From NCBI RefSeq assembly GCF_006717095.1, contig NZ_VFQE01000001.1:2542001-2606000 (forward strand): a stretch of 64,000 bases of DNA, read 5' to 3'. The position numbers and the translations under genes are program-made. Below the pieces are notes generated by a model. It searched no databases. It worked only from the letters and a program-made list of their open reading frames with translations, and had not been told where the DNA came from. Below are positions 31,566-53,978 of the stretch, one piece after another (position 1 is the first letter of the stretch; each line of letters begins with the position of its first letter). Source of the DNA: Blastococcus colisei. Its GTDB lineage: Bacteria > Actinomycetota > Actinomycetes > Mycobacteriales > Geodermatophilaceae.

Positions 31566-31728
31566 GGCGTCCTCCCGGAGGTGCGACTGTGGCGTGGTTC
31601 ACAGCCTGCCCGCGATCCCGGGGCCCGACAAGACCTGCACGGCCAGTTCTGGGCGACGAACCGGCCGGTCGAGCGACGGGCATCGGGGCGCGCCATGGCG
31701 CGGAGGCCGGGGACGATCCGGTCGGCGG

Positions 31729-32907
31729 TCAGTACGCGCGTTCGAGCAGCTCCAGGACATCTGCCTCTCGGACGTCGAGTGGAGCGAATGCCACGACCAT
31801 GTCCTCCATGGCTGCTCGCGCCAGCGCCGGGAACTGCTCCCTCCTCACTCCGACCGCCGAGAGCGTGGTCGGCAGGCCCAGCCCCGAGATGAAGCTGCGG
31901 ACGGCCTCCACGCCGACGGTCGCAGCCTCCTCCGGCGTACGTCCCGACACGTCCGCGCCCATCGCGGCAGCGATGTCGGCGAGACGCTGAGGAGCCACCT
32001 CCTTCACTCGCTCGAGAACGGCCGGCAGCATGACGCACGACGTCTCGCCATGCGGCACGTCGCACAAACCGCCGATCTGGTGCCCGATGCCGTGACTCAG
32101 ACCGAGCGTGACGTTGGCGACGCCCAGCATCGAGAGCCAGCCCGCCACCAGGCAGTTGACGCGGGCCTCGTGATCACGCGGATCGCGGGACGCGGGCAGA
32201 TTGTGTGCCAGCAGCTTGATCGCATGGAGAGCGGTGGCGTCTGTCACGGGAGTGGGCGAGCGGGACACGTAGGTCTCGATGGCGTGGTCGAGCGCGCGGA
32301 TCCCCGTGCCCAGCCACAGGCGCTCCGGCGTGAGCACGGTCACTGCGGCATCCAGGACGACCACACGAGGAGTGAGACGCGTGTCCGAGTAGAGGTCCTT
32401 GACCCCGGCGGATGACGTCATGCCGAAGATGCCGTCGTACTCGGCCGCTGACAGCGTCGTCGGAACAGCCACGATGGGCAGGGGCGGGCCGGTGAAGGGG
32501 CGGAGGTCGACCGTGTCCGGGTAGGTGAAAACGATCCTGTGCCGGTACAGCGACTGGCCGTCCTCGTAACCCTCGCCGATACTGGCGCTCACCGCCTTCG
32601 CGGCGTCGGTGACCGACCCGCCGCCGAGAGTGACGATGAGATCGGGGGAATACCCGCGAGCCTTCTGGACGAGGACATCGACGGACGAGGTCGGGACGTG
32701 CTGGACGACATCGCTCAGTACCCCGACGCAGCGCTCCCCCAGCACCTCCCGTACGCGCGCCTCGAGAGCAGTGCCGAGCAAGGACCTCGTGGTGAGCAGC
32801 AGTACGCGCTCGCCCCCCAGCGTGTCCACTGCCTCGGCGAGGCCGGAGACGGCGTCCGGCCCGTATATGACCCTCTCCGTCGTCGGGTACTCGTAGACGA
32901 AAGCCAT
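31729..32907 (-). CDS. Iron-containing alcohol dehydrogenase / maleylacetate reductase family
   Basis: A 392-aa group III alcohol dehydrogenase-fold enzyme. NAD-binding features are VLLLTTRSLLG and PDLIVTLGGGSVTDAAKAVSAS. PLPIVAVPTTLSAAEYD is the family middle motif. At the metal site the sequence is GIRALDHAIETY, where iron ADHs have G-M/x-D-x-x-x-H; the Asp is replaced by Arg, while His residues persist in GLSHGIGHQIGG and CDVPHGETS. This pattern resembles maleylacetate reductases. ATG 32907 has an AAGGAG site. It is divergent from the tetR gene across a shared palindromic operator, so it belongs to the TetR regulon. Confidence 0.85.
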   Translation of the reverse strand: MAFVYEYPTTERVIYGPDAVSGLAEAVDTLGGERVLLLTTRSLLGTALEARVREVLGERCVGVLSDVVQHVPTSSVDVLVQKARGYSPDLIVTLGGGSVTDAAKAVSASIGEGYEDGQSLYRHRIVFTYPDTVDLRPFTGPPLPIVAVPTTLSAAEYDGIFGMTSSAGVKDLYSDTRLTPRVVVLDAAVTVLTPERLWLGTGIRALDHAIETYVSRSPTPVTDATALHAIKLLAHNLPASRDPRDHEARVNCLVAGWLSMLGVANVTLGLSHGIGHQIGGLCDVPHGETSCVMLPAVLERVKEVAPQRLADIAAAMGADVSGRTPEEAATVGVEAVRSFISGLGLPTTLSAVGVRREQFPALARAAMEDMVVAFAPLDVREADVLELLERAY

Positions 32908-32953
32908 CGTTCCGCTCCTTCTAGCGCCGGATCTGCCCACCGTGGAACAATCC

Positions 32954-32972
32954 CGACCGACCGGTCGGTTGG
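32954..32972. promoter_or_regulatory. TetR-type operator, copy 1
   Basis: The 19 bases CGACCGACCGGTCGGTTGG contain a perfect 14-base palindrome (32956-32969). They lie between the divergent iron-ADH and tetR genes, 85 bases upstream of the tetR start. The identical 19-mer recurs at 51201-51219. Confidence 0.8.
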
Positions 32973-33056
32973 GTGCCTCACGCGGCATGCTTCCCCTTGC
33001 ACACCCTCTGGTCAACAGAAACAGGCCGGACCAGCTGAAAGACCGAGGAGACACAC

Positions 33057-33698
33057 ATGACGGCGGAGGCGCGGGTCAGTCGGAAGGAGCAGCTCATCGA
33101 GGCCGCAGCGGTCCTGTTCGACCGCCAGGGCTACTACACGACAGGCGTCGAGGACATCGCGCGCGCGATAGGGCTGAGCAAGCCGACGTTGTACCACTAC
33201 GTCCGGACCAAAGGTGAGATCGTCGCGTGGATCCACGATGAGATCATGGACATCCTGCTCCGGCGGCTCGAGGAACGTGTCTCCTCCGGCCTGAGCCCCA
33301 TCGAGGTCCTGCGACTCAACGTCATCGACATCATCGACGTGATGGACACCAAGCCCGGGCACCTGAGGGTGTTCTTCGAACATCACCGCGAGATCCCCGA
33401 GGCGCTGCGTCGAGAGGCGAAGGTGAAGCGGGACCGGTATCAGGCACTCATCGAGCTGACGATCGCGGACGGCATCGAGAAGGGCATGTTCCGCAAGACC
33501 GACGTCCGGCTCGCCACGCTGGCGCTGTTCGGTATCACGAACTGGTCCTACCAGTGGTATCGCCCAGCCGGCCCGGCGAAGTCCCAGGAGGTCGCCCAGC
33601 ACCTGTTCGACGTCTTCCTGGGAGGCATATCCGCGACTGGGCCGGACGGCTCGGAGCCCGTGCCGGCGGTCCTCCACGGAGCTGACGGCTCGCCGTGA
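33057..33698 (+). CDS. TetR family transcriptional regulator of the catabolic island
   Basis: A 213-aa TetR repressor. The N-terminal helix-turn-helix domain is SRKEQLIEAAAVLFDRQGYYTTGVEDIARAIGLSKPTLYHYVRTKGEIVAWI. The C-terminal helices (VIDIIDVMDTKPGHLRVFFEHHREIP...LFGITNWSYQWYRPAGPAKSQEVAQHLFDVFLGGI) resemble the TetR C-terminal domain of regulators of fatty or aromatic acid CoA-ester catabolism (KstR2-like architecture), which often sense an acyl-CoA. ATG 33057 has a GAGGAGA site. It overlaps the amidohydrolase start by 4 bases and lies next to operator copy 1, so autoregulation is likely. Confidence 0.92.
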   Translation: MTAEARVSRKEQLIEAAAVLFDRQGYYTTGVEDIARAIGLSKPTLYHYVRTKGEIVAWIHDEIMDILLRRLEERVSSGLSPIEVLRLNVIDIIDVMDTKPGHLRVFFEHHREIPEALRREAKVKRDRYQALIELTIADGIEKGMFRKTDVRLATLALFGITNWSYQWYRPAGPAKSQEVAQHLFDVFLGGISATGPDGSEPVPAVLHGADGSP

Positions 33699-34549
33699 TC
33701 GCGGACGTGTGGGCACAGCCGCTCTGGCACCGGCCAGGTCGTCTGGACGTCCCCGAAGTGCGGAACGTCTTCGTACGGTCCGGGCGGGCCGACGCGCTGG
33801 ACAGGCCTGTCGAGCCGGAGGCTCTAGTCGAGGCCATGGACGAAGCCGGCGTGGACGTCGCCCTGCTCTCCGCCTGGCACCGTCCGGGCGGATGGGTCGT
33901 CAGCAACGACGACGTCGCCTCGTTCACCACGCGGCATCCGGAGCGCTTCGCCGGCGTTGCCAGCGTCGACCTGTCCGACCCGGTCGGTGCCGTCCGGGAG
34001 TTGCGGCGAGCCGTGGAGGACGACGGATTCGTCGGCCTGCGCCTGCTGCCGTGGCTGTGGGAGAGGCCGCCCGACCACGCCCTCTACTACCCGCTGTACG
34101 CCGCGTGCGTCGATCTCGGAGTCCCCTTCTGCACCCAGGTGGGGCACACAGGGCCGCTCCGCACATCCGAGACGGGTAGGCCCATCCCCTACATCGATCA
34201 GATCGCTCTGGACTTCCCGGAGCTGGTCATCGTCGGCGGGCACATCGGCTATCCGTGGACCGACGAGATGATCTCGCTGGCGTGGAAGCATCCGAATGTC
34301 TACATCGACACCTCTGCCTACCTGCCGAAGTACTACCCGCCACAGCTGGTCCACTACATCGAGACCTATGGACGCGACAAGGTCATGTTCGCCACGAACT
34401 GGCCGCAGCTGGACCATGTCCCCTGCCTTCAGCAGGTGGCAGGACTGGGCCTGAGCGACGCCGCGCAGGAGGCCTTCCTGGGTGGCAACGCCGCACGGGT
34501 CTTCCGGCTACCCGCGGGACCGGCGACCCAGCAGGGTGCCCATCCCTGA
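33695..34549 (+). CDS. Amidohydrolase family protein (amidohydrolase-2, ACMSD-like)
   Basis: A 284-aa TIM-barrel enzyme of the amidohydrolase-2 group, which contains decarboxylases (ACMSD, gamma-resorcylate decarboxylase) and hydrolases of cyclic acids. Landmarks are EALVEAMDEAGVDVALLSAW, RHPERFAGVASVDLSDPVGAVRELRRAVEDDGFVGLRLLPWLW, PFCTQVGHTGP, VGGHIGYPWTDEMISLAWKHPNVYIDTSAYLPKYYPPQLV and DKVMFATNWPQL. The usual metal-binding D-x-H at the start is DVWAQPLWH here, so the first metal site is atypical. The final Asp of DDP-type motifs is replaced by N (ATNWP). GTG 33695 is coupled to tetR (GTGA). Reaction not assignable. Confidence 0.82.
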   Translation: MIADVWAQPLWHRPGRLDVPEVRNVFVRSGRADALDRPVEPEALVEAMDEAGVDVALLSAWHRPGGWVVSNDDVASFTTRHPERFAGVASVDLSDPVGAVRELRRAVEDDGFVGLRLLPWLWERPPDHALYYPLYAACVDLGVPFCTQVGHTGPLRTSETGRPIPYIDQIALDFPELVIVGGHIGYPWTDEMISLAWKHPNVYIDTSAYLPKYYPPQLVHYIETYGRDKVMFATNWPQLDHVPCLQQVAGLGLSDAAQEAFLGGNAARVFRLPAGPATQQGAHP

Positions 34550-34713
34550 GCTCCGCACCAATGCCGCGGACAGCATCGGGAACGTCGTGCCGCGCCAGAA
34601 CCGCGGATCACCGCGATCGGGCGGGGGCAGCGGACGGACTCCGCAGGCTGGATACCGACAGCTCGCCCCACCGATCGGACGGGCTCCGACGCGACCAGGC
34701 CGAGGACGGACGA

Positions 34714-34748
34714 GGGGGTGGCAGCGCCACCAGAGCGCTGCCACCCCC
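34714..34748. terminator. Bidirectional terminator between amidohydrolase and ABC substrate-binding gene
   Basis: Perfect 14-bp arms (GGGGGTGGCAGCGC and its complement) with a 7-base loop. It lies between two converging genes, 16 bases past the binding-protein stop on the minus strand. Confidence 0.8.
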
Positions 34749-34764
34749 GACCGCAGGTCGTCGA

Positions 34765-36021
34765 TCAGCCCTCCGCTCGTTCATAGGTGATCGCGCCGTC
34801 CGCACCCACGCGGTAGACCATGGGCACGAGGAAGTCCGTGGTCACAGCGGTGTGCTCGGTGTCCGAGAAGGTGTACTCGCCGCGGGCAGCCTCGAAAGCG
34901 TCTCCCGACTCGATCTGCTCGATGACCGCCTCGGTCTCCGTGCTGCAGCCGGCACGCTCGAACGCATCCAGCAGCACCTTCGCGCCGTCGTACGAGCTGG
35001 CGGGGGTGCCGCCGAACGCCGGCACCGGCCACTCGCCCTCGCCGTAGTACCGGTCGTTGCCGTACGCCTCGAGATACATCTGCGCGAAGTTGCGCGCCGA
35101 CTCCGTCTCCGGCTCGCCGCCCGAGAAGGCCTCGTACTGCACGACGATGGTTCCGTCCACGAGCTCGGCGGCCCGCTCCTGGTAGGGAATCGTGCCGGCC
35201 CCGTTGCTGATGACGAACGGCGTCTCCAGCATGTTCAGCCGCGCCATGCCCTGCCGGATGGTCGCCGTGTCGGCGCCCAGGCCCACCATCGCGATCGCGC
35301 CCGGGTTCGCCTGCTGGATCCGTGCCAGCTGAGCGGTGACGTCCGTGGCCCCCTGGTCGTAGCTCTCCCGGGCGACCACCTCGACGCCTGCTTCTTCGAG
35401 GACCATCTCGATCTCGTTGAGCCCGGTCTCGCCGTAGGGAGTGCTCTCCGCGATCAGCCCCACGGTGTCGAAGTTCTCGCTGAGGTACTGGCCCATGAAC
35501 TCCGCCTCGACGACGTTGCCCAGCGAGAAGCTGAACACGTTGTTGTACGGCTCGTCCTGGCCCTCCGGGGTGACGATCGTGGACGTCTGGGCGATCGTGT
35601 TCATCATGATCTTGTTCTCGGAGTTCACGAGCGGAAGGACCGCGAGGGTGGGGCCGCTGCCCGCCGGCGACATGATGAAGTCGACGTCGTCCTCGCCGAG
35701 CAGACGCCGCATGTTGGCCTGCGCCGTCTCTGCGACGAGCTGGTCGTCGTAGGCGATCAGCTCCACCTCCTGATCACAGGCTCCCGATTCGTTGAACTCG
35801 TCGATCGCCAGCCGAATGCTGTTCTCCATCGGCTCGCCGAACTCCGAGTACGCCCCGGTGAGCGCGGTGGTCAGACCGATCCGCACCGGGCCGTCTCCCC
35901 CGTCGCCGCCGCCGCCGTCTCCGCCGCCGCCTACGGCACTGCCACTGCATCCTGCAGTGAATCCGAGCACTGCCGTGGCAGCGGTCGCCGTCCAGATCCT
36001 GCGGGCCAAAGTGGTGCGCAT
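34765..36021 (-). CDS. ABC transporter substrate-binding lipoprotein, branched-chain amino acid (LivJ/K) type
   Basis: 418 aa. A signal sequence ends in a lipobox-like TAGC with Cys25, followed by a Gly/Asp-rich linker. The periplasmic-binding fold type I then starts with VRIGLTTALTGAYSEFGEPMENSIRLAIDEFNESGA. MSPAGSGPTLAVLPLVNSENKIMMNT and VGLIAESTPYGETGLNEIEMVLEEAG are typical of LivJ-like receptors. In island settings these systems often carry aromatic or alicyclic acids rather than amino acids. ATG 36021 has GGAG six bases upstream; an ATG at 36036 lacks such a site. It is the last gene of the minus-strand import operon. Confidence 0.9.
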   Translation of the reverse strand: MRTTLARRIWTATAATAVLGFTAGCSGSAVGGGGDGGGGDGGDGPVRIGLTTALTGAYSEFGEPMENSIRLAIDEFNESGACDQEVELIAYDDQLVAETAQANMRRLLGEDDVDFIMSPAGSGPTLAVLPLVNSENKIMMNTIAQTSTIVTPEGQDEPYNNVFSFSLGNVVEAEFMGQYLSENFDTVGLIAESTPYGETGLNEIEMVLEEAGVEVVARESYDQGATDVTAQLARIQQANPGAIAMVGLGADTATIRQGMARLNMLETPFVISNGAGTIPYQERAAELVDGTIVVQYEAFSGGEPETESARNFAQMYLEAYGNDRYYGEGEWPVPAFGGTPASSYDGAKVLLDAFERAGCSTETEAVIEQIESGDAFEAARGEYTFSDTEHTAVTTDFLVPMVYRVGADGAITYERAEG

Positions 36022-36105
36022 GTCGTCTCCATTCATCGATCGTCTTCAGGGGGAAGTGCTCGCGCCTCTGTCCATCCGTGGGCGGTGGTCACCGCGTCGG
36101 CGCCG

Positions 36106-36888
36106 TCAGGAGAGAAGGTCCTCTCGTGGGCCCGGTCCGTCCTTCGTGAGCGACGGGTCGCTCGTCGCCGCACCGCCGAGGTAGGCCTCCTGAACGCTCA
36201 TCTCTCCCAGCAGTTCGTGAGCGGGCCCCGAGGCGACGACCGATCCGCGCTGCAGGACCCACGCCTCGTCCGCCACCTGCAGAGCCAGTGCGGCGAGCTG
36301 CTCGACCAGCAGGATCGTCAACCCTTCCTGCCGCAGGGTGGCGATGAGCTGGAAGGTCTCGTCCACGAGCTTGGGGGCAAGGCCCAGGGATGGTTCGTCG
36401 AGCAGCAGCACCGACGGCTTCGACATCAGGGCCACCGCGGTCGCCAGCATCTGCTGTTCGCCCCCGCTCAACGTCGCGGCAGCCTGCCGACGCCGCTGCC
36501 CGAGGATGGGGAACCGCTCGTACTGCGCGTCGACGTCGGTGAGGACGTCCGCCCGCTTGGCTCTCGACCGGTACCGATCAAGGGCGCCCAGCAGGAGGTT
36601 GGCGTGGACGGACTGGTCGCCGAAAACGCGGTGCCCTTCGAGCACGTGCGCGACCCCGAGACGGACCCGCTTGTGCGCCGGGACCTGCGTGACGACGCCG
36701 TGCCCCTCGAACTCGACCTTGCCGGTCGACGGGGCGACGAGGCCGCTCAGCACTTTCAGCAGAGTCGACTTGCCGGCACCGTTGGCGCCGATGACCGTGC
36801 CGACGTGGCCCTGCTGCAGGTGCAGCGAGACGTTCCGCAGCGCGCTCACCGGACCGTAGTTGACGCTGACATCCGTGACAGTGAGCAC
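36106..36888 (-). CDS. livF: ABC transporter ATP-binding protein, LivF type
   Basis: A 260-aa ABC ATPase. The Walker A motif is GTVIGANGAGKSTLLKVLSGL, the signature is ATLSGGEQQMLATAVALM, Walker B is PSVLLLDEPSLGLAP, and the H-loop region is LTILLVEQ. The LivF hallmarks LGVAHVLEGHRVFGDQSVHANLL and MSVQEAYLGG place it in the HAAT family. Three bases separate it from the end of the fused LivM-LivG. It energises uptake with that protein and LivH. Confidence 0.93.
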   Translation of the reverse strand: MLTVTDVSVNYGPVSALRNVSLHLQQGHVGTVIGANGAGKSTLLKVLSGLVAPSTGKVEFEGHGVVTQVPAHKRVRLGVAHVLEGHRVFGDQSVHANLLLGALDRYRSRAKRADVLTDVDAQYERFPILGQRRRQAAATLSGGEQQMLATAVALMSKPSVLLLDEPSLGLAPKLVDETFQLIATLRQEGLTILLVEQLAALALQVADEAWVLQRGSVVASGPAHELLGEMSVQEAYLGGAATSDPSLTKDGPGPREDLLS

Positions 36889-36891
36889 CGA

Positions 36892-38748
36892 TCACACCCC
36901 CGTAGCCGCGGCCGAGGCACCGAGATACGCCTCGAGCACCCGTTCGTCGCTTCGCGCCGCAGCCGGCGTCCCGTCGAAGATCACCTCGCCCTGGTCCAGT
37001 ACCGTCACGGTCTCCACGAGCCGGAGCAGGAAGTCCATGTGGTGCTCGATGAGCAGGACCGTCATGCCGCCGTCACGCAGCGTCTGGAGCAGCGACGCCA
37101 GCTCGACCAGGTCGTCCTCGGCGAGGCCGGCGGCGGGCTCGTCGAGCATGAGCAGCAGGGGCTCGCCCGCCAGCGAGCGAGCCAGCTCGAGCAATCGTTG
37201 CCGGCCGAACGGCAGGCCTCCCGCCAGTGCCTCGCGGAGTTCCTCCAGCCCGACGCGCTCGATGGCCGCCTCCGCGGAGCGGACCATGCGACGTTCCTCC
37301 CGCACGGCGGCGCGGGTGCCGAACAGCAGCTGGACCAGGCGCGAGCGGAACAACCGCTCGGCTCCGACGACGACGTTCTCCCGGACAGTGAGCTCGTCGA
37401 AGACGAGGGGATGCTGGAAGGTCCGGCCGATGCCGAGCGTGGCGACCTGGTGCGGCTTGCGTCCGTCGGCACGCACTCCGCCGAAGGACACCTGCCCGCT
37501 GGTCGGCTTGTAGACGCCCGAGACCACGTTCAGCAGCGTGGTCTTGCCGGAGCCGTTCGGGCCGATCAGGCCGTGGATGCTGCCCTTACGGACCGAGATG
37601 CTGACGCCGTCCAGAGCGCGCACGCCGCTGAAGTTCATCACGACGTCCCGCACCTCGAGCAGGACGTCGCCCTCGGCGACCCCGGCTGCCGCGGCACCGT
37701 CACGACTCTGCTCGGCCGGCTGCACCTCGGCCGGCTCGGCCTTCTCGTCCCTCCGCCGGTCGACGCGGTGGTGGATGAGACTGGTCCGGTAAGGGAACAG
37801 CCCTGCGAGACCACGTGGCAGCACGATGAAGGAGAACAGCAGGATCAGGCCGTAGATGAGGTGCTGCCACTCGCTGAACGCCTGCAGTTGATCAGGAAGG
37901 TAGGTCAGCAGCGCGGCGCCGAGGAAGGGCCCTGCCAGCGTCCGCATTCCGCCCAGGACGGCGAACACGAGGATCGCGATGGACGCATTCACCGAGAAGG
38001 CGTCGGGACTGACGAAGCCGACGACGTGGGCGTACGTCACGCCGGCGATGCCGGCCAGCGCAGCGCTGAGGACGTAGGCGAGCCGCTTCCGGCGGGCCGG
38101 GTTCACGCCGAGCGTGGACGCCGCCAACTCGCTCTCCTGGAGCGCGACGAACGAGCGGCCGACGTGCGACTTGAGGATGTTGGCGAGCAACCAGGTCACG
38201 ACGACGACCAGGACCACCGTGACGTAGAAGTACGACACCAGCCCCAGGGTGTAGCCGAAGACCGTGAGCGAGCCCAGCGGCGGTGAGGGGATGTTCCCCA
38301 GGCCGGAGAACCCGCCCGTGACCTCTCCCCACTGGCGGAAAATCGTGAAGGCCAGGATGCCCAGCCCGAGGGTCACCATGGCGAGGTAGAACTCGTGGAC
38401 CCGGCCGGCCGGGATCGACACGAGCGCCCCGACGATGATCGCCATGACGATCCCGGCTGGTACCGAAGCCCAGAGTGGCCAGTCGTACTGCACGGACATC
38501 ACCGCCGTGCCGTAGGCCCCGGTGCCGTAGATGGCTGCCTGACCCAGCGAGATCTGGCCGGCGTAACCGGTGAGGACGTTGATGCTCTGGGCCAGCAACG
38601 CGTTGATGCCGAAGATGATCGTCAGTTGCACCAGACGTGGTGGCGACGTGAACGGGATGACGAGCACCACCACAACCGCCGCGGCCGCGAAGGCCCACGG
38701 TGGCAGGGCGCCAGTGATCCGCCGGACACCGTCTCGAAGGGAGTTCAT
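36892..38748 (-). CDS. Fused LivM permease - LivG ATPase
   Basis: 618 aa. Residues about 1-330 are the LivM-type permease: eight or more helices, GYAGQISLGQAAIYGTGAYGTA, LTVFGYTLGLVSYFYVTV and AILVFAVLGGMRTLAGPFLGAALL. After a charged linker of about 40 residues (rich in Glu, Ala and Arg), residues about 365-618 are the LivG-type ATPase. This part has LIGPNGSGKTTLLNVVSGV, GIGRTFQHPLVFDELTVRENV, PFGRQRLLELARSLAGEPLLLMLDEPAAGL and the H-loop MTVLLIEHHMD. The signature LSGGQ is LPFGRQ here, as in many LivG proteins. Permease and ATPase are usually separate genes. The start overlaps the livH stop by 4 bases. Confidence 0.92.
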   Translation of the reverse strand: MNSLRDGVRRITGALPPWAFAAAAVVVVLVIPFTSPPRLVQLTIIFGINALLAQSINVLTGYAGQISLGQAAIYGTGAYGTAVMSVQYDWPLWASVPAGIVMAIIVGALVSIPAGRVHEFYLAMVTLGLGILAFTIFRQWGEVTGGFSGLGNIPSPPLGSLTVFGYTLGLVSYFYVTVVLVVVVTWLLANILKSHVGRSFVALQESELAASTLGVNPARRKRLAYVLSAALAGIAGVTYAHVVGFVSPDAFSVNASIAILVFAVLGGMRTLAGPFLGAALLTYLPDQLQAFSEWQHLIYGLILLFSFIVLPRGLAGLFPYRTSLIHHRVDRRRDEKAEPAEVQPAEQSRDGAAAAGVAEGDVLLEVRDVVMNFSGVRALDGVSISVRKGSIHGLIGPNGSGKTTLLNVVSGVYKPTSGQVSFGGVRADGRKPHQVATLGIGRTFQHPLVFDELTVRENVVVGAERLFRSRLVQLLFGTRAAVREERRMVRSAEAAIERVGLEELREALAGGLPFGRQRLLELARSLAGEPLLLMLDEPAAGLAEDDLVELASLLQTLRDGGMTVLLIEHHMDFLLRLVETVTVLDQGEVIFDGTPAAARSDERVLEAYLGASAAATGV

Positions 38749-39626: not shown

Positions 39627-39684
39627 GGTCGCTCTCGTCTCCCGTCGCGGTCGGTACTGCGGGCTGAGCCGGACCCCACGGCGC

Positions 39685-44390: not shown

Positions 44391-44635
44391 GTCGGATCAC
44401 CACTGGTCGCCTCGACCCGGGCGATGACCTGTCCTGCCTCGACCTGCGCGCCTTCCTCGACGAGCAGCTCGGTGATCCGGCCGGAGACCTGGCTGACGAT
44501 CTCGGCATCGGCCTTGTCGGTCTCCATCTCGGCGACCGGCTCGTCCTCCGTGACGAGGTCGCCCACCTTCTTCAGCCACACCACGAGGTGCGCCTCGTCC
44601 ATCGTGACGCCCCACTTCGGGACCACAATCTCCAT
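44387..44635 (-). CDS. Free-standing lipoyl-domain protein (E2 lipoyl subunit)
   Basis: 82 aa, a single biotinyl/lipoyl domain: MEIVVPKWGVTMDEAHLVVWLKKVGD, then VAEMETDKADAEIVSQVSG with the modified lysine at residue 41, then GRITELLVEEGAQVEAGQVIARVE. The DKA sequence is the lipoylation type, not the MKM of biotin carriers. ATG 44635 overlaps the E1-beta stop by one base (TGATG), and the stop overlaps the E2 catalytic gene. It is the swinging arm for the neighbouring E1 and E2 catalytic proteins. Lipoylation must come from a ligase or from LipA; a lipA gene lies at the end of this island. Confidence 0.93.
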   Translation of the reverse strand: MEIVVPKWGVTMDEAHLVVWLKKVGDLVTEDEPVAEMETDKADAEIVSQVSGRITELLVEEGAQVEAGQVIARVEATSGDPT

Positions 44636-46652: not shown

Positions 46653-47101
46653 GCGGACTCTCCCTGCGTCAGGGGAAACCCGATGACGGCCCATCCGGGC
46701 GCGCAGAGTTTCCCGTCCTGGTTGTGCTCGAACAGCTCGCACTCGACGACGCCGAACCCGTCCTCGGTACGCGTGGCGGTGACCCGCCCGTCGCACGTCA
46801 GCACGTCGCCCGGGACGGCGAGATGCCGGTTCTCCCACCGGAAGCGGCGCAGCCGCGCCCCGGGGCCGGCCCAGTCGAGGGCCGCCTGGATCAGGAAGGC
46901 CCCGTGCAGATGGGACTGGACGAGGACGGCCGGATAGCCCTCGCTCCGGGCATAGGCGTCGTCGTAGTGGATGAGGTGGGCGTTCCAGGTGACGGCGCTG
47001 TAGCGGAAGAGTTGGAGGCCGGTCGGCCGCTTCACCAGCGCGGGGATGGCCTGGCCGACGGTGATGTCGGCGAATCGGGGGGGCGTGGTCTGGGTCGCCA
47101 T
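46649..47101 (-). CDS. MaoC-like dehydratase / hotdog protein (catalytic half)
   Basis: A 150-aa hotdog-fold protein. RFADITVGQAIPALVKRPTGLQLFRYSAVTWNAHLIHYDDAYARSEGYPAVLVQSHLHGAF resembles MaoC-type (R)-specific enoyl-CoA hydratases. In this family the catalytic residues are Asp and His separated by a short stretch (D-x4-H); here they appear as TWNAHLIHYDD, with Asn in the Asp position. ATG 47101 has GAGGAG upstream. It probably forms a heterodimer with the MaoC-like protein encoded just before it, like HadAB-type pairs. It would hydrate an enoyl-CoA of the island pathway. Confidence 0.85.
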   Translation of the reverse strand: MATQTTPPRFADITVGQAIPALVKRPTGLQLFRYSAVTWNAHLIHYDDAYARSEGYPAVLVQSHLHGAFLIQAALDWAGPGARLRRFRWENRHLAVPGDVLTCDGRVTATRTEDGFGVVECELFEHNQDGKLCAPGWAVIGFPLTQGESA

Positions 47102-47109
47102 GGAACTCC

Positions 47110-47616
47110 TCATCGGGCGATGAACGACTCGCGGCAGGTGAGGACCTCTCGGCCCTCACCGTCGACGTAGCGCCGGAGGACCCGCACCAGGAGCAACGTC
47201 CCGCTGCGGCCCTGCTTCAGGTCGACGCCGTCCAGGCTGATGTGGGCGACGATGTCCATGCCGTCGACCACGTCGTGATGCAGCTCGATGTCCTGGCCGG
47301 CGCCCATCAGCCGCAGCCCCTCGAGCGGCAACCCGACGGTCTCGCTCTTGCCGGTCCCGTCCGGCCGAAGGTCCTCCTCGGCCGGCCCGGGCTCCCATCC
47401 CATGACCCCGGACAGGAACAGCGGGGGTGCCACGGCCTCGGGGAAACCCTCGGCGCGCGCAGCGTCGTCGTCCACGTAGCGCGGGCTGACGTCCCCGCAG
47501 GCGTACGCGAACCGCTGGAACTCCTTCTTCGACATCCGCCCCAGCGGCAGCTGGTGCACCTGACCGACGACCGCCTTGGCGCGCTCGTACGTCTGCTCGA
47601 AGAGGTCGCCGCTCAT
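47110..47616 (-). CDS. MaoC-like (FAS1-type) dehydratase N-terminal protein
   Basis: A 168-aa hotdog protein of the FAS1-type MaoC N-terminal group: GRMSKKEFQRFAYACGDVSPRYVDDDAARAEGFPEAVAPPLFL, and GQDIELHHDVVDGMDIVAHISLDGVDLKQGRSG. It lacks the catalytic D-x4-H motif and is normally the structural partner of a catalytic MaoC chain, which is the next gene. ATG 47616 overlaps the acyl-CoA synthetase stop by 4 bases. Confidence 0.85.
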   Translation of the reverse strand: MSGDLFEQTYERAKAVVGQVHQLPLGRMSKKEFQRFAYACGDVSPRYVDDDAARAEGFPEAVAPPLFLSGVMGWEPGPAEEDLRPDGTGKSETVGLPLEGLRLMGAGQDIELHHDVVDGMDIVAHISLDGVDLKQGRSGTLLLVRVLRRYVDGEGREVLTCRESFIAR

Positions 47617-49202
47617 GATCCGGCCCCGCTCTCCGCGCTCCACTGACGCAGGACCTTCTTCTCGATCTTGCCGATCGAGGTCTTCGGCAGACCGTCGATG
47701 ATCTCCACGACGGTCGGCACCTTGAAGCCGGCCAGGTGCTCACGGCAGTGCCGGAGCACCTCGTCCACCGTCAGATCGACACCCTCGCGTGCGACGACGA
47801 ACGCCTTCACGGCCTCGTCGCGAATGGGATCCGGCACCCCGATGACCGCGGCCTCGGCGACGCCCTCGTGGGTCAGCAGCGCCACCTCCACCTCGCTGGC
47901 CGAGATGTTCTCCCCGGACCGCTTGATGACGTCCTTCTTGCGATCGAAGAAGTAGACGTAGCCGCGCTCGTCGAAGTAGCCGTTGTCGCCGGTGTAGAGC
48001 CACCCGTCGCGGAGGGCGGCAGCGGTGGCGTCCGGGTCCTTGAAGTACCCCTTCATCAGGGTGCGGCCGGGGATGCCCCAGACGATGATCTCGCCGGGGC
48101 TGCCGAGCGGGACGTCCTCGCCCCGCTCGTCGACGATCCGCACGATGCGGTCGTAGGCAGGGAGGCCGATGGAGGGCCACCGCTTCTCACCGAACACCGG
48201 GGCGACGGTGACGATCGTCATCGCCTCGGACAGTCCGTAGCCGTTGACGAGCTCGACACCGTACCGGCGCTCGAACTCTTCCTTCTCCGAGTCGAGCACG
48301 TTGATGGCGTAGAAGTTCCGGCGCAGGTGGTGCTGCCGGTCCTCGTCACGAGGCGGCTGCGCCAGCAGCGTGCGCACCTGCATCGCCACCAGGCTCACCG
48401 ACGTCGCACGGTGGCGGATCAGCTGCGACCAGAAGATCGAGGCGCGGTACTCCTCGAGCAGGATGCAGGTGCCACCGACCGTGAGCGACGCCATGATCGT
48501 CATCGACTGGGCGTTGACGTGGAAGGCCGGGAGCGCGGTCAGGAACCGGTCCTGGTCGTCCGCCGCCGCTGAACGCGATGCGCGCTCACCGGAGCGGAGA
48601 CAGTTCGCATGCGTGAGCATGACGGCCTTCGGCCGGGACGTGGTCCCCGACGTGAAGATCATCTGGGCGACGTCCTCGCTGTCCACCTCCACCACCGGCG
48701 GTTCGGCGTCGGCAGCCAGGAAGTCGGTGAACAGCACCGCTTCGCCCATGGCGGTGGTGGTACGAGCCAGGACGCGATGCTTCACCGTCGGCGCCCCCTG
48801 GACCGCCCGGTCGATGACCTCCCAGTGGTCTGCGGAGACGACGACGGCCACGGCCTCCGAGTGACCGAGCACGTGCTCCATCTCGGTCGCGGTGTTCGCC
48901 GCGTTGGCAGGCACGGCGACCGCACCGATCCAGGTCAGCCCGAACCAGCTGAAGAGGAACTCCGGGCAGTTCGGCAGATGGATGACGACCGCGTCGCCCT
49001 TGCCGATGCCCAGGCCGGCGAAGCCGGCCGCAGCCCGCTGCACGTTGCGCAGGAACTCGCTGTAGGTGAACTCCTGAACATCGCCGTTCCTGCCCTCGAA
49101 CACGAGGTACGGCTTGTCGGGCTGCCTGTCCACACGCTCGGTGAGCAGGTTCCGCAGATTTCGCCGACCGACGACGTCGACGCTGAGAGCAGTCATGTCC
49201 AT
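47613..49202 (-). CDS. AMP-dependent acyl-CoA synthetase
   Basis: A 529-aa ANL-superfamily ligase that activates a carboxylic acid to its CoA thioester via an acyl adenylate. The P-loop motif is MIFTSGTTSRPKAVMLTHAN. LPAFHVNAQSMTIM is the A4-like region, and A5 is ELVNGYGLSEAMTIVTVAP. The hinge/A7-A8 is GWLYTGDNGYFDERGYVYFFDRKKDVIKRSGENISASEVE, and the catalytic A10 lysine is PKTSIGKIEKKVLR. It is the probable entry step of the pathway. ATG 49202 has GAGGAGG upstream. Confidence 0.93.
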   Translation of the reverse strand: MDMTALSVDVVGRRNLRNLLTERVDRQPDKPYLVFEGRNGDVQEFTYSEFLRNVQRAAAGFAGLGIGKGDAVVIHLPNCPEFLFSWFGLTWIGAVAVPANAANTATEMEHVLGHSEAVAVVVSADHWEVIDRAVQGAPTVKHRVLARTTTAMGEAVLFTDFLAADAEPPVVEVDSEDVAQMIFTSGTTSRPKAVMLTHANCLRSGERASRSAAADDQDRFLTALPAFHVNAQSMTIMASLTVGGTCILLEEYRASIFWSQLIRHRATSVSLVAMQVRTLLAQPPRDEDRQHHLRRNFYAINVLDSEKEEFERRYGVELVNGYGLSEAMTIVTVAPVFGEKRWPSIGLPAYDRIVRIVDERGEDVPLGSPGEIIVWGIPGRTLMKGYFKDPDATAAALRDGWLYTGDNGYFDERGYVYFFDRKKDVIKRSGENISASEVEVALLTHEGVAEAAVIGVPDPIRDEAVKAFVVAREGVDLTVDEVLRHCREHLAGFKVPTVVEIIDGLPKTSIGKIEKKVLRQWSAESGAGS

Positions 49203-49213
49203 GCGTCTCCTCC

Positions 49214-50359
49214 TCAGTCGCGCGAGGACAGACCGAGCATGTTGCGCGCGATCATCCAGCGGTGGATCTCGCCGGTCCCATGGCCGATGCGCCAGACGCG
49301 GACCTGGCGGTAGAAGCTCTGGATCGGGACCTCCTTGCTGTAGCCGAGCCCGCCGAAGATCTGGAGGCAGCGGTCGGTGACCCGCTGGGCCATCTCGGTC
49401 GCGTAGAGCTTGGCCATGAAGGCCTCGTTGCGGATGTGCTGCCCCTCGTCGGCCATCCAGGCAGCCCGGTACACGAGCATTCGGGCCGCATCGAGCTCGA
49501 CGGCCGAGTCGGCCAGCATCCACTGGATGGCCTGGCGGGTGGCGATCGGCTTGCCCCACGTCACGCGCTGCTTGGCCCACTCCACGGCCAGGTCGATCGA
49601 CCGCTGTGCGATGCCCAGCTGGTACGCGGCGATCTTGAGACGGCCGTGGGTGAGCTGCTCGGACGCGAGCTCCCAGGCCCCGTTCACCTCGCCCAGCCGG
49701 TTGGCGTCCGGGACGACGCAGTCCTCGAAGGTCAGTTCGTAGGGCTCCCACGCGTCGCCCATCGTGGGGATCGGGCGGGACAGCTCGAAGCCCGGTGTGC
49801 CGATGTCGACCAGGAAGCAGGTGATGCCGCGGCCGCCGAGGGCCGGGTCGGTGGTGGCGAACAGGATGCAGAAGTCAGCACGGTCGGCCTCGGAGATGAA
49901 GGTCTTGCGGCCGTTGATGATCCAGTTGTCGCCGTCCCGCTTCGCCTGCGTGGTGATGCGGGCGAAGTCGGAGCCACCTCCCGGCTCCGTGAAGGCGTAG
50001 CAGCTGCGCTTGCCGTCATCGATGACGCCACGCAGGTACCGCTTCTTCTGATCCTCGTTGCCCTCGTAGAGGGCGGGCTCGGGGCTCCCGCCGAAGTCGA
50101 ACATGGCCGGGTGCTTGTAGAGCTCCTCCGCCACGAGGCACGTCGCCAGGGTCCCCATGCCCTGGCCGCCGTACTCCTCGGGCACGTCCAGCGCCCAGAA
50201 CCCCAGCTGGCGGGCGCGCTGCTCGAGCTCCGTGCGCTGTTCGTTGGTGAAGTTGCCCTTGAGCAGGAATTCCTGCTCCAACGGCATGAGTTCGCGCTCG
50301 CGGAACTGCCGGACCGAGTCGACGAACTGCTTGAGCTCGTCGGGGATGCTGAAGTCCAT
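49214..50359 (-). CDS. Acyl-CoA dehydrogenase family protein
   Basis: A 381-aa FAD-dependent acyl-CoA dehydrogenase. CYAFTEPGGGSDFARITTQAKRDGDNWIINGRKTFISEADRADF is the FAD/acyl motif. LTHGRLKIAAYQLGIAQRSIDLAVEWAKQR and QIFGGLGYSKEVPIQSFYRQVRVWRIGHGTGEIHRWMIAR complete the C-terminal helical domain. Where medium-chain enzymes have YEGT with the catalytic base Glu, this protein has GHGT, so the base must lie elsewhere or differ, as in some branched, cyclic or aryl acyl-CoA dehydrogenases. 42 bases separate its stop from the upstream SDR start side. It introduces the double bond that the MaoC or crotonase proteins would hydrate. Confidence 0.92.
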   Translation of the reverse strand: MDFSIPDELKQFVDSVRQFRERELMPLEQEFLLKGNFTNEQRTELEQRARQLGFWALDVPEEYGGQGMGTLATCLVAEELYKHPAMFDFGGSPEPALYEGNEDQKKRYLRGVIDDGKRSCYAFTEPGGGSDFARITTQAKRDGDNWIINGRKTFISEADRADFCILFATTDPALGGRGITCFLVDIGTPGFELSRPIPTMGDAWEPYELTFEDCVVPDANRLGEVNGAWELASEQLTHGRLKIAAYQLGIAQRSIDLAVEWAKQRVTWGKPIATRQAIQWMLADSAVELDAARMLVYRAAWMADEGQHIRNEAFMAKLYATEMAQRVTDRCLQIFGGLGYSKEVPIQSFYRQVRVWRIGHGTGEIHRWMIARNMLGLSSRD

Positions 50360-50401
50360 AGGGACGCTTGCCTTTCGCTGCGATGAGGAGGGATCGAGCC
50401 T

Positions 50402-51181
50402 TCAGATGCGGTAGGCCCAGGTGTTGCTGAAGCCGCCGTCGACCACGACCGTCGTCCCGGTCACGTAGCGAGCGGCAGGGGATGCCAGGAAGACAGCCGG
50501 CCCCGCCAGGTCGTCGGGCTGACCCCAACGTGCCTGTGCGATCCGGCCTCTGACGGCCTCGTAGAAGGCCTTGTCCTTGCGACCGTTGGCGTTCATCTCG
50601 GTCTCGATGAACCCCGGCGCCAGGGCATTCACCGTGATGCCGTGCGGCGCCCAATCTGCGGCTAGGCACTGCGTCAGGGAGCGGATCGCGGCCTTGCTGG
50701 GTGAGTACGGGATCGAGCGCGAGATCCCCTGCTCGGACAGCACCGAGGTCACGTTGATGATCCGCCCGTAACCGCGGCTGATCATGTGCGTGCCGACCGC
50801 CTTGATGAGGGCGAATGTGCCTCGCACGTTCACGTCCATGACCCGGTCCCAGTCCTCGACGGACAGCTCCTGGGCCAGCCGGGCGAAGGGGCTCGTGGCC
50901 GCGTTGTTCACCAGCACATGCAGCTGCGAGAACTGCTCGCGGGCCAGCTCGGCGACGTGCACGGCCTGGTCGGTCTGGTTGATGTCGGCCACGAGCGGCA
51001 GAGCTGCCCCGCCCTGGGCCTCGATCTCGCGGGCGACGTCGTCGAGGGTCTTCTGCTCACGCCCCAGGAGGACGACGTCCGCGCCGGCGCCCGCCAGCGC
51101 CAAGGCGATCGACCGACCGATTCCGCGGCTGGCGCCCGACACCACGGCGGCCTGCCCGTCGAGGCGGAAATCTGGCCCCAT
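50402..51181 (-). CDS. SDR family oxidoreductase
   Basis: A 259-aa short-chain dehydrogenase. The cofactor loop is AAVVSGASRGIGRSIALALAGAGADVVLLGRE. The NNA motif is VLVNNAATSPFARL. The active-site Ser, Tyr and Lys are in NVTSVLSEQGISRSIPYSPSKAAIR. The ending GTTVVVDGGFSNTWAY is typical. It should oxidise a hydroxyl or reduce a ketone on an intermediate. ATG 51181 is 20 bases downstream of operator copy 2 and a well-formed sigma-70-type promoter, so it is the first gene of the long minus-strand operon. Confidence 0.92.
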   Translation of the reverse strand: MGPDFRLDGQAAVVSGASRGIGRSIALALAGAGADVVLLGREQKTLDDVAREIEAQGGAALPLVADINQTDQAVHVAELAREQFSQLHVLVNNAATSPFARLAQELSVEDWDRVMDVNVRGTFALIKAVGTHMISRGYGRIINVTSVLSEQGISRSIPYSPSKAAIRSLTQCLAADWAPHGITVNALAPGFIETEMNANGRKDKAFYEAVRGRIAQARWGQPDDLAGPAVFLASPAARYVTGTTVVVDGGFSNTWAYRI

Positions 51182-51200
51182 GTGCGCCTCCGGAGATGTT

Positions 51201-51219
51201 CGACCGACCGGTCGGTTGG
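51201..51219. promoter_or_regulatory. TetR-type operator, copy 2
   Basis: Identical to the 19-mer at 32954-32972, with the same perfect 14-base palindrome (51203-51216). It lies between the divergent SDR genes starting at 51181 and 51341, in the position to block both promoters. Confidence 0.82.
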
Positions 51220-51233
51220 CTGATACGGTGAGG

Positions 51234-51263
51234 ACTATCACAGCGGCTGCCGCGAGCTGTCAA
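51234..51263 (-). promoter_or_regulatory. Sigma-70-type promoter of the minus-strand catabolic operon
   Basis: On the minus strand TTGACA (51263-51258) is followed by 18 bases and GATAGT (51239-51234), a good housekeeping -35/-10 pair. The predicted start point is about 7 bases further on. The TetR operator copy 2 is immediately downstream, as expected for a roadblock or initiation-blocking repressor. Confidence 0.65.
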
Positions 51264-51340
51264 GAAGTCATCTCGATCTCGCCCGTGGTTCGGTCGACGA
51301 CTCGGCACGTGGCCAGAAGGCGTGTTCCAGGAGGGGTCCA

Positions 51341-52090
51341 GTGACGCCGAGACTGATGGGAAAGACGGCTCTCGTCGCCGGTGCGGGCGGCGCCTTGGGA
51401 GCGGCGATCGCGACCGCTTTCGCCGCCGAGGGCGTGCGCGGGCTGTTGCTGGCCGATCTGGCACCGGACGGCCTACGGCCGCTGCGCGACCGGCTGGCCG
51501 GCGCAGGCCACACGGTCGTCACCGCGGCCCTGGACGTCACCGACGGAGAGGCCTTCGACGAGGTAGTCGCCGACGCGGTACAGCGCTGGGGCCGGCTGGA
51601 CGTGCTGGTGAACAATGCCGGGGTCGTGCCGCCGAACGCCCGGCTGCACAACCTCTCGACAGAGGCCTGGTCCTCCTGCCTCGCGGTGAACCTGACGGGC
51701 ACCTTCCACGGCATCCGGGCGGCCGCCCGCGTCATGCGCGAACACGGGGGTGCCGTCGTGAACACCGCATCGGTGAGCGCGGTGACGGCCTGGCCCCATG
51801 CGGGGCCCTACGGCGCGGCGAAGGCCGGCGTGGTCCACCTCACGAAGGTCGCCGCACTCGAGTACGCGAAAGAGAGGATCCGGGTGAACTGTGTCTGTCC
51901 CGGCGCCTTCCCGTCGGCCATCCACGACGGACTGCCGGCCGGCGCTCTCGAGTCCATCGCGTCCCGGCATCCGCTGGGCCTGGGCCGCCCCGAGGACGTC
52001 GCAGCGGCAATCGTGCATCTGGCCAGCGAGGAGTCACGGTGGACGACGGGTCACGCACTGATCGTGGACGGCGGGTACTCACTGCCATGA
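51341..52090 (+). CDS. SDR family oxidoreductase
   Basis: A 249-aa short-chain dehydrogenase. Cofactor loop [37 protein letters not shown]; the active site is [27 protein letters not shown], with Tyr and Lys in [22 protein letters not shown] and [13 protein letters not shown] follow. GTG 51341 has AGGAGGGG upstream. It is the first gene of the plus-strand arm of the island, divergent from the SDR at 50402. Its stop overlaps lipA (ATGA), an unusual partner for an SDR. Confidence 0.92.
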
Positions 52091-53046
52091 CCGACGTCCA
52101 CCCCGAAGGTCGGAGGCTGCTGCGCGTCGAGGTCCGCAACGCGCGCGTGCCCGTCGAGAAGAAGCCACCCTGGATCAAGGTGCGGGCGGTGACCGGGCCG
52201 GAGTACGTCGATCTCAGGTCGCTGGTGCGCCGCGAGGGCCTGCACACCGTCTGCGAAGAGGCCGGCTGCCCCAACATCTACGAGTGCTGGGAAGACCGCG
52301 AGGCCACCTTCCTCATCGGGGGCGACCAGTGCACCCGACGCTGCGACTTCTGCCAGATCGACACCGGCAAGCCCGCTGACTTCGATGCCGACGAGCCGCG
52401 CCGCGTCGCCGAGAGCGTGACCACGATGGGCCTGCGGTACGCCACGGTCACCGGCGTCGCCCGCGACGACCTGCCCGACGGCGGGGCCTGGCTCTACGCC
52501 GAGACCGTGCGGCAGATCCACGCCCAGCTCCCCGGCTGCGGCGTGGAGCTGCTGATCCCGGACTTCAACGCCGACCCCGACCAGCTCGCCGAGGTGTTCT
52601 CCTCCCGTCCCGAGGTGCTCGCGCACAACGTCGAGACCGTGCCGCGCATCTTCAAGCGCATCCGGCCCGGCTTCCGCTTCGACCGCTCGCTGGCGGTGAT
52701 CACCGCGGCCCGCGAGGCCGGCCTGGTCACCAAGTCCAACCTGATCCTCGGCATGGGCGAGGAGCCGCACGAGGTCGCGCAGACCATGCAGGCCCTGCAC
52801 GACGCCGGGTGCGACCTGCTGACCATCACCCAGTACCTGCGCCCCTCGCCCCGGCACCACCCGGTGGTCCGCTGGGTGAAGCCCGACGAATTCGTCGGCT
52901 TCCAGGCCGAGGCCGAGCGCATCGGCTTCCCGGGCGTGCTCGCCGGTCCCCTCGTGCGCAGCTCGTACCGGGCCGGGCGGCTCTACCAGCAGGCCGTCGA
53001 GGCCCGCGGCCTCACCCGCCCCGAGTTGGACCCAGCAGGTCGTTGA
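52087..53046 (+). CDS. lipA: Lipoyl synthase
   Basis: A 319-aa radical-SAM enzyme that inserts two sulfurs into octanoyl-lysine to make the lipoyl cofactor. The auxiliary-cluster cysteines are in [16 protein letters not shown], and the radical-SAM cluster is [52 protein letters not shown] and [10 protein letters not shown] are all standard. ATG 52087 is coupled to the SDR. lipA usually sits beside lipB; here it lies in the island that encodes a lipoyl-dependent complex, suggesting a dedicated copy. The codon pattern does not differ from the neighbours. Confidence 0.95.
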
Positions 53047-53186
53047 CGGCCCGTCAGACTCCGACCGACAGCGCGCGTCGACCTGCACGTCCGGCTCCAG
53101 GTGCGACCCCAGGAGCCGTGAGGGCCCGCCGAACTCCCCTGACCGTGCTCTGGCCGAGACGCCCGTTCGAGAAGAGGTAGCGCCCC

Positions 53187-53978
53187 GTGAACTCCCTGCC
53201 CGAGCTGCAGACCCTCCACCTGGAAATCGAGGAGGACACACTCACCGCGATGATCAACAGGCCGCGACGCGCCAATGCGGTCAACCGGCAGCTGCTGCGG
53301 GACCTGATCAGCATGGCGGACTGGCTGCGGGACCGTAGCGACGTCGGCTACCTGGTGCTCGCCCACCAGGGCGATGTCTTTTCCGCCGGTGCCGATCTGC
53401 AGGAACTTCACGACGAGCTCTCCGACGAGGAGAACCGGCGTTCGAAGATGCGGTCCCTGCAACACCTGGCACAAGAGATGATGGTCAAGCTCGAAGGACT
53501 CGAGCAGATCTCGTTCGCGGCCATGAGCGGATCGGCGTACGGCGCCGGATTGGCCATCGCCATGACCTCCGACTTCAGGGTCATGGCCGAGAACGCGGTA
53601 GCGAACCTTCCCGAGAGCAGGCTCGGGATGTTCCTCACGTACGGAGCCACCCCGCGGCTGGTGGGCACCGTCGGGCTGAGTCGCGCCAAAGAGATGATCA
53701 TGTTCGCCGAGGACGTGTCCGCCCAGGACTGCCTCGAGTGGGGCATTGCGCAGCGGGTCGTGCCCCGAGACGAGGTACTGCCCGCAGTTCGAGACATGAT
53801 CGCCCGCCTGCGCATCAACGACCGCACCGCCATCAGGATCGCCAAGCAGATGGCCAATGCTTCCGCCGCTGTCGCCTTCGGTGACATGGTTCGCGCCGAG
53901 CCGCAGCTGGTCGGTAGCACCCTCGGCGACGGCAGCGTACTCACGCACCTCTCGGCCTTTCTGAACCGCACGCCGTGA
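53187..53978 (+). CDS. Enoyl-CoA hydratase/isomerase family protein
   Basis: A 263-aa crotonase-fold protein: TAMINRPRRANAVNRQLLRDLI, then VFSAGADLQELHDEL, then FAAMSGSAYGAGLAIAMTSDFRVMAENAVANLPESRLGMFLTYGATPRLVGTVGLSRAKEMIM. The oxyanion glycines are present, but the two catalytic Glu positions of hydratases look like Ala/Gly and Arg (SAYGAGLA; PESRLGM), so isomerase, hydrolase or decyclase chemistry is plausible. GTG 53187 has an AAGAGGT-type site. It lies 140 bases after lipA, perhaps in the same transcript. Confidence 0.87.
   Translation: MNSLPELQTLHLEIEEDTLTAMINRPRRANAVNRQLLRDLISMADWLRDRSDVGYLVLAHQGDVFSAGADLQELHDELSDEENRRSKMRSLQHLAQEMMVKLEGLEQISFAAMSGSAYGAGLAIAMTSDFRVMAENAVANLPESRLGMFLTYGATPRLVGTVGLSRAKEMIMFAEDVSAQDCLEWGIAQRVVPRDEVLPAVRDMIARLRINDRTAIRIAKQMANASAAVAFGDMVRAEPQLVGSTLGDGSVLTHLSAFLNRTP

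Follow-up and report, generated by a model that had tools for sequence, protein, structure and literature searches.

A horizontally acquired, probably TetR-controlled gene island in Blastococcus colisei and a tentative acyloin-cleaving route of acid catabolism

We analysed a 64-kb window of Blastococcus colisei DNA (contig NZ_VFQE01000001.1, positions 2,542,001 to 2,606,000), in which a block of ~22.5 kb holds 23 genes between 31,729 and 53,978. By comparison with congeners, this block is a horizontally acquired insertion. We read it as a catabolic island, probably regulated by TetR and built round a conserved core of seven genes, which encode an acyl-CoA dehydrogenase, a coenzyme A (CoA) ligase, the two MaoC proteins MaoC1 and MaoC2, the E1alpha and E1beta subunits of a thiamine-dependent enzyme, and a free-standing lipoyl protein. 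The chemistry that we tentatively assign to it, with a probability that we put at roughly 0.35, is hydration of an acyl-CoA to a (probably tertiary) acyloin-CoA, followed by thiamine-dependent cleavage onto the lipoyl protein.

Gene content and insertion of the island

An original prediction, made from the letters of this DNA alone, had proposed a complete and undescribed acid-degrading pathway here. Pfam or NCBIfam scans of the 23 genes recovered every enzyme class that it named, at or near the predicted positions: a Liv importer, a ligase, an acyl-CoA dehydrogenase, a MaoC pair, two crotonases, three short-chain dehydrogenases/reductases (SDRs), a zinc-type dehydrogenase, an MmgE/PrpD enzyme and an amidohydrolase. 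The E1alpha, E1beta, lipoyl and E2 domains that it described were found as well, the proposed split of E2 taking the form of an 82-aa free lipoyl protein and a 237-aa catalytic domain, but a lipoyl synthase gene (52,087-53,046) had been overlooked. The features are as follows.

31614..54098, unstranded: inserted island, approximate ends, where DNA homology to congeners ends and resumes
31729..32907, minus: iron-containing alcohol dehydrogenase (Fe-ADH); PF25137/PF00465; start from translation
32954..32971, unstranded: operator-like palindrome CGACCGACCGGTCGGTTG, site 1, in the Fe-ADH / TetR divergent promoter
33057..33698, plus: TetR-family regulator (TetR_C_24); PF17932, PF00440
33695..34549, plus: amidohydrolase (Amidohydro_2); PF04909
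34765..36036, minus: ABC importer substrate-binding protein; PF13458; 58% identity in G743
36106..36888, minus: LivF-type ATPase; PF00005; 67% in G743
36892..38748, minus: LivM-LivG fusion (permease and ATPase); PF02653 and PF00005; 64% in G743
38745..39626, minus: LivH-type permease; PF02653; 74% in G743
39685..41022, minus: MmgE/PrpD-family enzyme; PF03972/PF19305; in 13 of 22 relative loci
41019..42101, minus: zinc-type (MDR) dehydrogenase/reductase (ZnADH); PF00107/PF08240
42101..42922, minus: crotonase ECH1; PF00378
42919..43680, minus: SDR3; PF13561
43677..44390, minus: E2 catalytic domain, 237 aa, without lipoyl domain; PF00198 only
44387..44635, minus: free-standing lipoyl protein, 82 aa, core gene; PF00364; ETDKA lysine motif by reading
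44635..45624, minus: E1beta, core gene; PF02779/PF02780
45621..46652, minus: E1alpha, core gene, GTG start; PF00676; core clade in tree
46649..47113, minus: MaoC2 hydratase, core gene, with WN[AP]H[RL]IHYD motif; PF13452
47110..47643, minus: MaoC1, probable non-catalytic partner, core gene; PF13452; motif degenerate; weak ChsH1/ChsH2 match
47613..49196, minus: acyl-CoA synthetase (CoA ligase), core gene; PF00501; best NCBIfam model CaiC, below cut-off
49214..50359, minus: acyl-CoA dehydrogenase, Gly-His replacing Tyr-Glu, core gene; PF00441/PF02770/PF02771
50402..51181, minus: SDR1; PF13561
51201..51218, unstranded: operator-like palindrome, site 2, in the SDR1 / SDR2 divergent promoter
51341..52090, plus: SDR2; PF13561
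52087..53046, plus: lipoyl synthase LipA, mostly near-identical to host lipA; TIGR00510 above cut-off
53187..53978, plus: crotonase ECH2; PF00378

Genes cover 95% of 31,613-54,107, and the minus-strand run from SDR1 to the binding protein (51,181-34,765) consists of 17 genes that overlap at 11 of their 16 junctions, the widest gap being 69 bases. The scans, which did not extend to the rest of the chromosome, found no thiolase among the 23 genes, as had been predicted, and no dihydrolipoyl dehydrogenase (E3).

To check for insertion, the region upstream of an EF-G-like gene (29,283-31,352) was compared in 15 congeners. Both window flanks match close together in ten of these, with a spacing of 48-108 bp in eight and of 468 and 935 bp in two more. 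The homology of the left flank stops at 31,612-31,613 in nine congeners and at 31,581-31,635 in the remaining ones, while that of the right flank resumes at 54,099-54,122 in ten of the 15. In congeners L223 and L225 the right-hand sequence occurs only more distantly, several kb off, and none was found in L226, L228 and L231, the last of these being a short contig (4.2 kb). Only one of 112 genomes of the host family, that of the window itself, has the island E1beta (E<=1e-90), and the GC content in 2-kb bins is 0.67-0.71 within the island as against 0.71-0.77 in the flanks. It is because the flanks adjoin in most congeners, E1beta is confined to one genome of the family and the GC content is lower that we conclude that the block was inserted. 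The bounding genes are close neighbours in congeners and the order of the core recurs in other families, so the island goes beyond a chance assemblage. There is no tRNA in the 64-kb window, and hence none at the insertion site, and no integrase or transposase among the 23 island genes, flanking genes beyond the two neighbours not having been scanned. A plasmid collection gave no E1alpha match at E<=1e-60.

A seven-gene core in distant relatives

Relatives were chosen by E1beta similarity, so that the presence of E1 in them is by construction, and all 22 places found (in 20 genomes) were used. Their gene models come from our own picking of open reading frames and from tblastn, and the loci span 15-40 kb, so that absence means absence from the locus. 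Where searches covered 345-396 genomes, scoring was limited to the few best candidates of each, one survey of relatives took in 80 of 591, and one listing of loci took in 60 of 127. E1beta relatives occur in 11 of 65 genomes of Actinomadura (the genus of G411), in 12 of 345 genomes of the order to which G411 belongs (of which 11 were known from the other searches) and in 8 of 390 genomes of Pseudonocardiaceae (the family of G414). Leaving aside that of the window, the top E1alpha among 396 genomes from the host phylum is 55% identical. Outside the 22 stands contig L096 (7.5 kb; E1alpha 61%, E1beta 47%), which carries no other core gene.

E1alpha, E1beta, the lipoyl gene, MaoC1 and MaoC2 are present at all 22 loci, and the CoA ligase and the acyl-CoA dehydrogenase at 21 each (missing from G643 and G751, respectively). 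The order dehydrogenase-ligase-MaoC1-MaoC2-E1alpha-E1beta-lipoyl, within 6.1 kb, is found at 17 loci. MmgE recurs at 13 loci, ten of them from Actinomadura, and in G743 the Liv importer follows it with its genes arranged as in the window. The ECH1 and ZnADH orthologs (62-63%) occur together in G751 and G1143. By contrast, an E2 ortholog is present at one locus only (G440b), Fe-ADH orthologs are at 44-45% identity in two, and no LipA ortholog was found at any of the 22. From this distribution, the gene list divides into a core and additions, with E2, lipoyl synthase, SDRs, Fe-ADH and amidohydrolase mostly counting as local ones, and the original picture of all the listed genes as one full route is not supported. 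Merged open frames in Actinomadura hinted at a lipoyl-MmgE fusion, which was rejected because the lipoyl gene lies in another frame.

The surroundings of the core vary among relatives. In G440b (L163), the core with its E2 (53%) adjoins molybdenum-hydroxylase-like and amidohydrolase-like genes, as judged from translations. In G440c and G429 (L164, L165), the open frames with the E1alpha matches are 655 and 664 aa long, which leaves room for E1beta, and the two subunits may be fused there; G440c also has cupin- and dioxygenase-type genes near the core. A LigB-type ring-opening dioxygenase near the core of G414 would suit an aroyl product. In G610, G582, G643 and G740 (L181-L184, L187-L190), all or most of the core is found close to a gene encoding a protein of ~800 aa, which in G610 has no Pfam match at E<=1e-5, and a dehydroquinate (DHQ)-synthase-like cyclase and KAS III lie near the core in some of these four genomes, where the module possibly has a biosynthetic use.

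A shared putative operator

Searching for repeats brought up the near-palindrome CGACCGACCGGTCGGTTG in each of the island's two divergent promoters, at 32,954 (Fe-ADH / TetR) and 51,201 (SDR1 / SDR2). Within the window, four matches at <=3 mismatches represent these two sites read on both strands; the mean over shuffles was 0.59, and one of 100 shuffles reached four. In the whole genome (5.16 Mb), the 20-base form at <=1 mismatch occurs at the two island sites only, with two further places at 3 mismatches, and the reversed control pattern gave 1 and 2 matches at <=3 mismatches. As the genome has this palindrome at <=1 mismatch only in the two divergent promoters, both arms of the island are probably co-regulated by TetR, in agreement with the TetR control first proposed.

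This signal extends to the relatives, 15 of whose 22 loci contain sites at <=2 mismatches to the symmetric form (40 in total; ten first-order Markov shuffles of these 539 kb yielded 0-2 apiece). Of the 21 loci with a dehydrogenase gene, 14 have a site 17-52 bp ahead of where the dehydrogenase match begins, and TetR homologs of 41-54% identity occur at nine of the 22. Further sites in G743 and Actinomadura adjoin transporter, luciferase-like and amidase-like genes, with Pfam backing for the amidase and luciferase-like protein of G743 and for the transporter of G411. In G806 (L185-L186), one such site separates the core dehydrogenase from a divergently oriented hydantoinase/oxoprolinase-A gene (Pfam), and the gene after the latter reads, from its translation, like its B partner.

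Unusual dehydrogenase, MaoC pair and other enzymes

The acyl-CoA dehydrogenase of the window and those of all 21 relatives that have one carry Gly-His at the place of the Tyr-Glu pair of solved short-chain enzymes. Less similar dehydrogenases in the fetched loci never have His there (none of 13 distinct motifs; four Glu, four Gly and five others). The enzyme is thus without the catalytic Glu, having His at the loop JK position and, by alignment, Gly at what we take to be the helix G position. The ThnO paper (PMC11659651) states that the catalytic Glu is kept in most such dehydrogenases, the exceptions being long-chain enzymes and those for isovaleryl-CoA and benzylmalonyl-CoA, and that a Gly just before this position accompanies substrates with a tertiary beta-carbon. 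Because of this Gly, a bulky or beta-branched substrate is favoured, which is in keeping with the heavily branched acids considered at first; the alicyclic or terpenoid class remains a suggestion.

MaoC2 carries the motif WN[AP]H[RL]IHYD in the window and in 22 of 22 relatives, and the matching stretch of MaoC1 is degenerate or missing. If this motif marks the catalytic subunit, as we presume, MaoC1 would be the probable non-catalytic partner of MaoC2. Among solved structures, ECH1 is closest to 3-hydroxypropionyl-CoA dehydratase, and general alcohol dehydrogenases and quinone reductases rank top for ZnADH; MmgE is nearer to iminodisuccinate epimerase and cis-aconitate decarboxylase than to 2-methylcitrate dehydratase. 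A propionyl-CoA/methylcitrate finish through ECH1, ZnADH and MmgE is weakly suggested. Fe-ADH had been called maleylacetate-reductase-like; the family itself was confirmed, but no NCBIfam model for that reductase matched at E<=1e-30, the best models being ErcA and lactaldehyde reductase, far below cut-off.

Relationships of E1 and its lipoyl partner

In an E1alpha tree of 65 rows, the 23 core rows (window included) form one group (support 100/99), sister (100/94) to six rows that include a second E1 of the window's genome. Together with acetoin-dehydrogenase-like rows they make up 58 rows that, at a weakly supported fork (86/62), exclude six rows like branched-chain 2-oxo acid dehydrogenase (BKDH) or pyruvate dehydrogenase (PDH), so that E1 does not group with BKDH E1; the group labels are our own, BKDH/PDH-like meaning identity <40%, and the tool warns of long branches. 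The window E1alpha is 50-54% identical to the acetoin-dehydrogenase-like rows printed, compared with 35-37% for BKDH/PDH-like rows of the host genus. Identity to a row from Clostridium magnum (L059), which we take to be a characterised acetoin dehydrogenase, is 52%, the island protein keeping to its own clade (100/99). The second acetoin-dehydrogenase-like E1alpha/E1beta pair of the window's genome (L220/L046, G000:C1:2293237-2294733) lies beside Liv-type transporter matches. The lipoyl proteins of 21 loci were inspected and all keep the Lys in the expected motif, mostly ETDK, with ESDK in G582 and EAAK in G440c and G429.

The island lipoyl synthase gene has a history of its own. Over its first ~120 aligned bases it shares only 70-73% identity with the resident lipA of the host (L009), and after a short step (90%) the identity rises to 97-100% over a tract of roughly at least 750 bp. 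This near-identical part averages 88-94% identity to the lipA of congeners, to which the host's own copy is close throughout. Of the 15 congeners, 14 have one lipA; the search found none in the remaining one, whose genome is 80% complete. As the identity of the island gene to the host gene jumps while the host copy stays congener-like, the island lipA was probably converted by the host copy, with a foreign 5' end remaining.

Proposed route

In the route that we propose, an organic acid would be imported by the Liv ABC transporter and activated by the CoA ligase, and the modified dehydrogenase, suited to acyl groups that are bulky or beta-branched, would desaturate the acyl-CoA for hydration by the two-subunit MaoC enzyme. 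If the substrate bears a carbonyl at C4, hydration at C3 would give a 3-hydroxy-4-oxo-acyl-CoA, that is, an acyloin, and a branch at C3 would make it tertiary. Plain beta-oxidation cannot handle acids whose beta-carbon is branched or fully substituted, and a tertiary alcohol formed from a hydrated beta-branched acyl-CoA would yield no 3-oxo thioester, closing it to ordinary thiolysis. An acyloin bond is the kind cut by acetoin dehydrogenases. The acetoin-dehydrogenase-like E1 would cut the C3-C4 bond, the acyl half passing to the free lipoyl protein and the CoA half leaving as a 3-oxoacyl-CoA. The island E2 (in relatives, an E2 from elsewhere) would then pass the acyl group to CoA and a host E3 reoxidise the lipoyl arm. 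SDR3, ECH1, the zinc-type reductase and MmgE/PrpD may process the products, and LipA would serve lipoylation of the extra carrier. Acyloin cleavage would explain together the missing thiolase, the MaoC pair, the Gly of the dehydrogenase and the E1-lipoyl set.

Several observations weigh against this reading. The acyloin-type cleavage put forward originally gains from the nearness of E1 to acetoin-dehydrogenase-like proteins, but the fork that separates these and the core from BKDH/PDH-like rows is poorly supported (86/62), none of the sister E1s has been characterised, and sequence alone gives no sign of acyloin over 2-oxo acid as the E1 substrate. The His of the dehydrogenase is a putative base. 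E2 orthologs are lacking at 21 of 22 relative loci, with E2-like proteins elsewhere in the five genomes searched, which leaves the fate of the acyl-lipoyl group in doubt. The core order is broken in G643, G751, G440c, G429 and G1143, the first two being those without the ligase and the dehydrogenase. No palindrome site at <=2 mismatches was found in G610, G582, G643, G440b, G440c, G429 or G414, and in G610, G582, G643 and G740 the core lies near partly biosynthetic-looking genes.

The main rival, which we hold to be about as probable as acyloin cleavage, makes E1, the lipoyl protein and E2 a branched-chain-type 2-oxo acid dehydrogenase that would supply acyl-CoA for beta-oxidation by the dehydrogenase and MaoC pair, with the CoA ligase salvaging free acid and a chromosomal thiolase or lyase finishing the route. 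Such a scheme would fit the gene set E1-lipoyl-E2-ligase-dehydrogenase-hydratase, and in NCBIfam the E1 subunits match at E<=1e-30 nothing but models of PDH E1, without reaching the cut-off; the Gly of the dehydrogenase is known also from isovaleryl-CoA dehydrogenase, as the ThnO paper (PMC11659651) mentions. Against it stand the higher E1alpha identity to acetoin-dehydrogenase-like proteins, albeit across the weak fork, the absence of a thiolase from the island and the near-absence of E2 from relative loci.

We consider it unlikely that two unrelated pathways for different substrates, the core and the local additions (amidohydrolase, Fe-ADH, SDRs, E2 and ECH1-ZnADH), were brought under one switch. 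The additions are absent from most relative loci, and ECH1 and ZnADH keep company only in G751 and G1143, but the overlaps at 11 of 16 junctions in the minus-strand run and an operator common to both arms speak against it. That the core module serves synthesis, with E1 and the lipoyl protein making or loading an acyl unit for a natural product, is highly improbable: a DHQ-synthase-like cyclase and KAS III (Pfam) do lie beside the core in G610, and translations suggest a similar cyclase in G582 and both proteins in G643, but the core is accompanied by the Liv importer in the window and G743 and by MmgE in ten Actinomadura loci, and the operator sites of G411 adjoin transporter, luciferase-like and amidase-like genes. 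We also considered nicotine-type (3-succinoylpyridine), carnitine and itaconate routes and set them aside because evidence for them was lacking.

Relation to known systems

A close likeness is to acetoin dehydrogenase (aco) systems, whose E2 usually has lipoyl and catalytic domains in one chain; in the island these are separate, the lipoyl protein being free-standing. The island also adds a CoA ligase, an acyl-CoA dehydrogenase, a MaoC pair and TetR control, and has no E3, and 21 of 22 relative loci have no E2 ortholog. What is shared, for example with acoABCSL of Pelobacter carbinolicus, is an E1 of similar family, lipoyl dependence and a clustered lipoyl synthase gene, acoS lying in the acetoin dehydrogenase cluster according to part of the published account (PMC3543383). 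Branched-chain 2-oxo acid dehydrogenase has the same E1alpha/E1beta/lipoyl/E2 parts, but the island E1alpha is far less similar to BKDH/PDH-like copies of the host genus and its E2 is split. The ChsH1-ChsH2 hydratase of sterol side-chain degradation is likewise a two-gene MaoC enzyme with one partner probably inert, but the island has no retro-aldolase among its 23 genes and the MaoC1 matches are weak (E about 2e-4). Isovaleryl-CoA dehydrogenase and ThnO share the Gly that replaces Tyr before the catalytic position, and differ from the island enzyme in the His that it has for Glu at the loop JK base position. Ordinary beta-oxidation differs in its thiolase and in having a loop JK or helix G Glu.

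In the literature searched, judged by titles and abstract openings and with subscription journals mostly outside its coverage, no description of the module was found, a weak negative that agrees with the pathway having been called undescribed. That the island embodies a catabolic logic without description there, in which tertiary-acyloin cleavage onto a free lipoyl carrier replaces thiolysis, joined to a Gly-His dehydrogenase in a portable seven-gene module with varying upstream and downstream enzymes, is a claim that we regard as rather doubtful. If true, it would mean a new degradative strategy for acids with branched or fully substituted beta-carbons, with the free lipoyl carrier and the His-for-Glu acyl-CoA dehydrogenase as directly testable additions, and it would give a function to a gene set that recurs in Actinomadura and its relatives.

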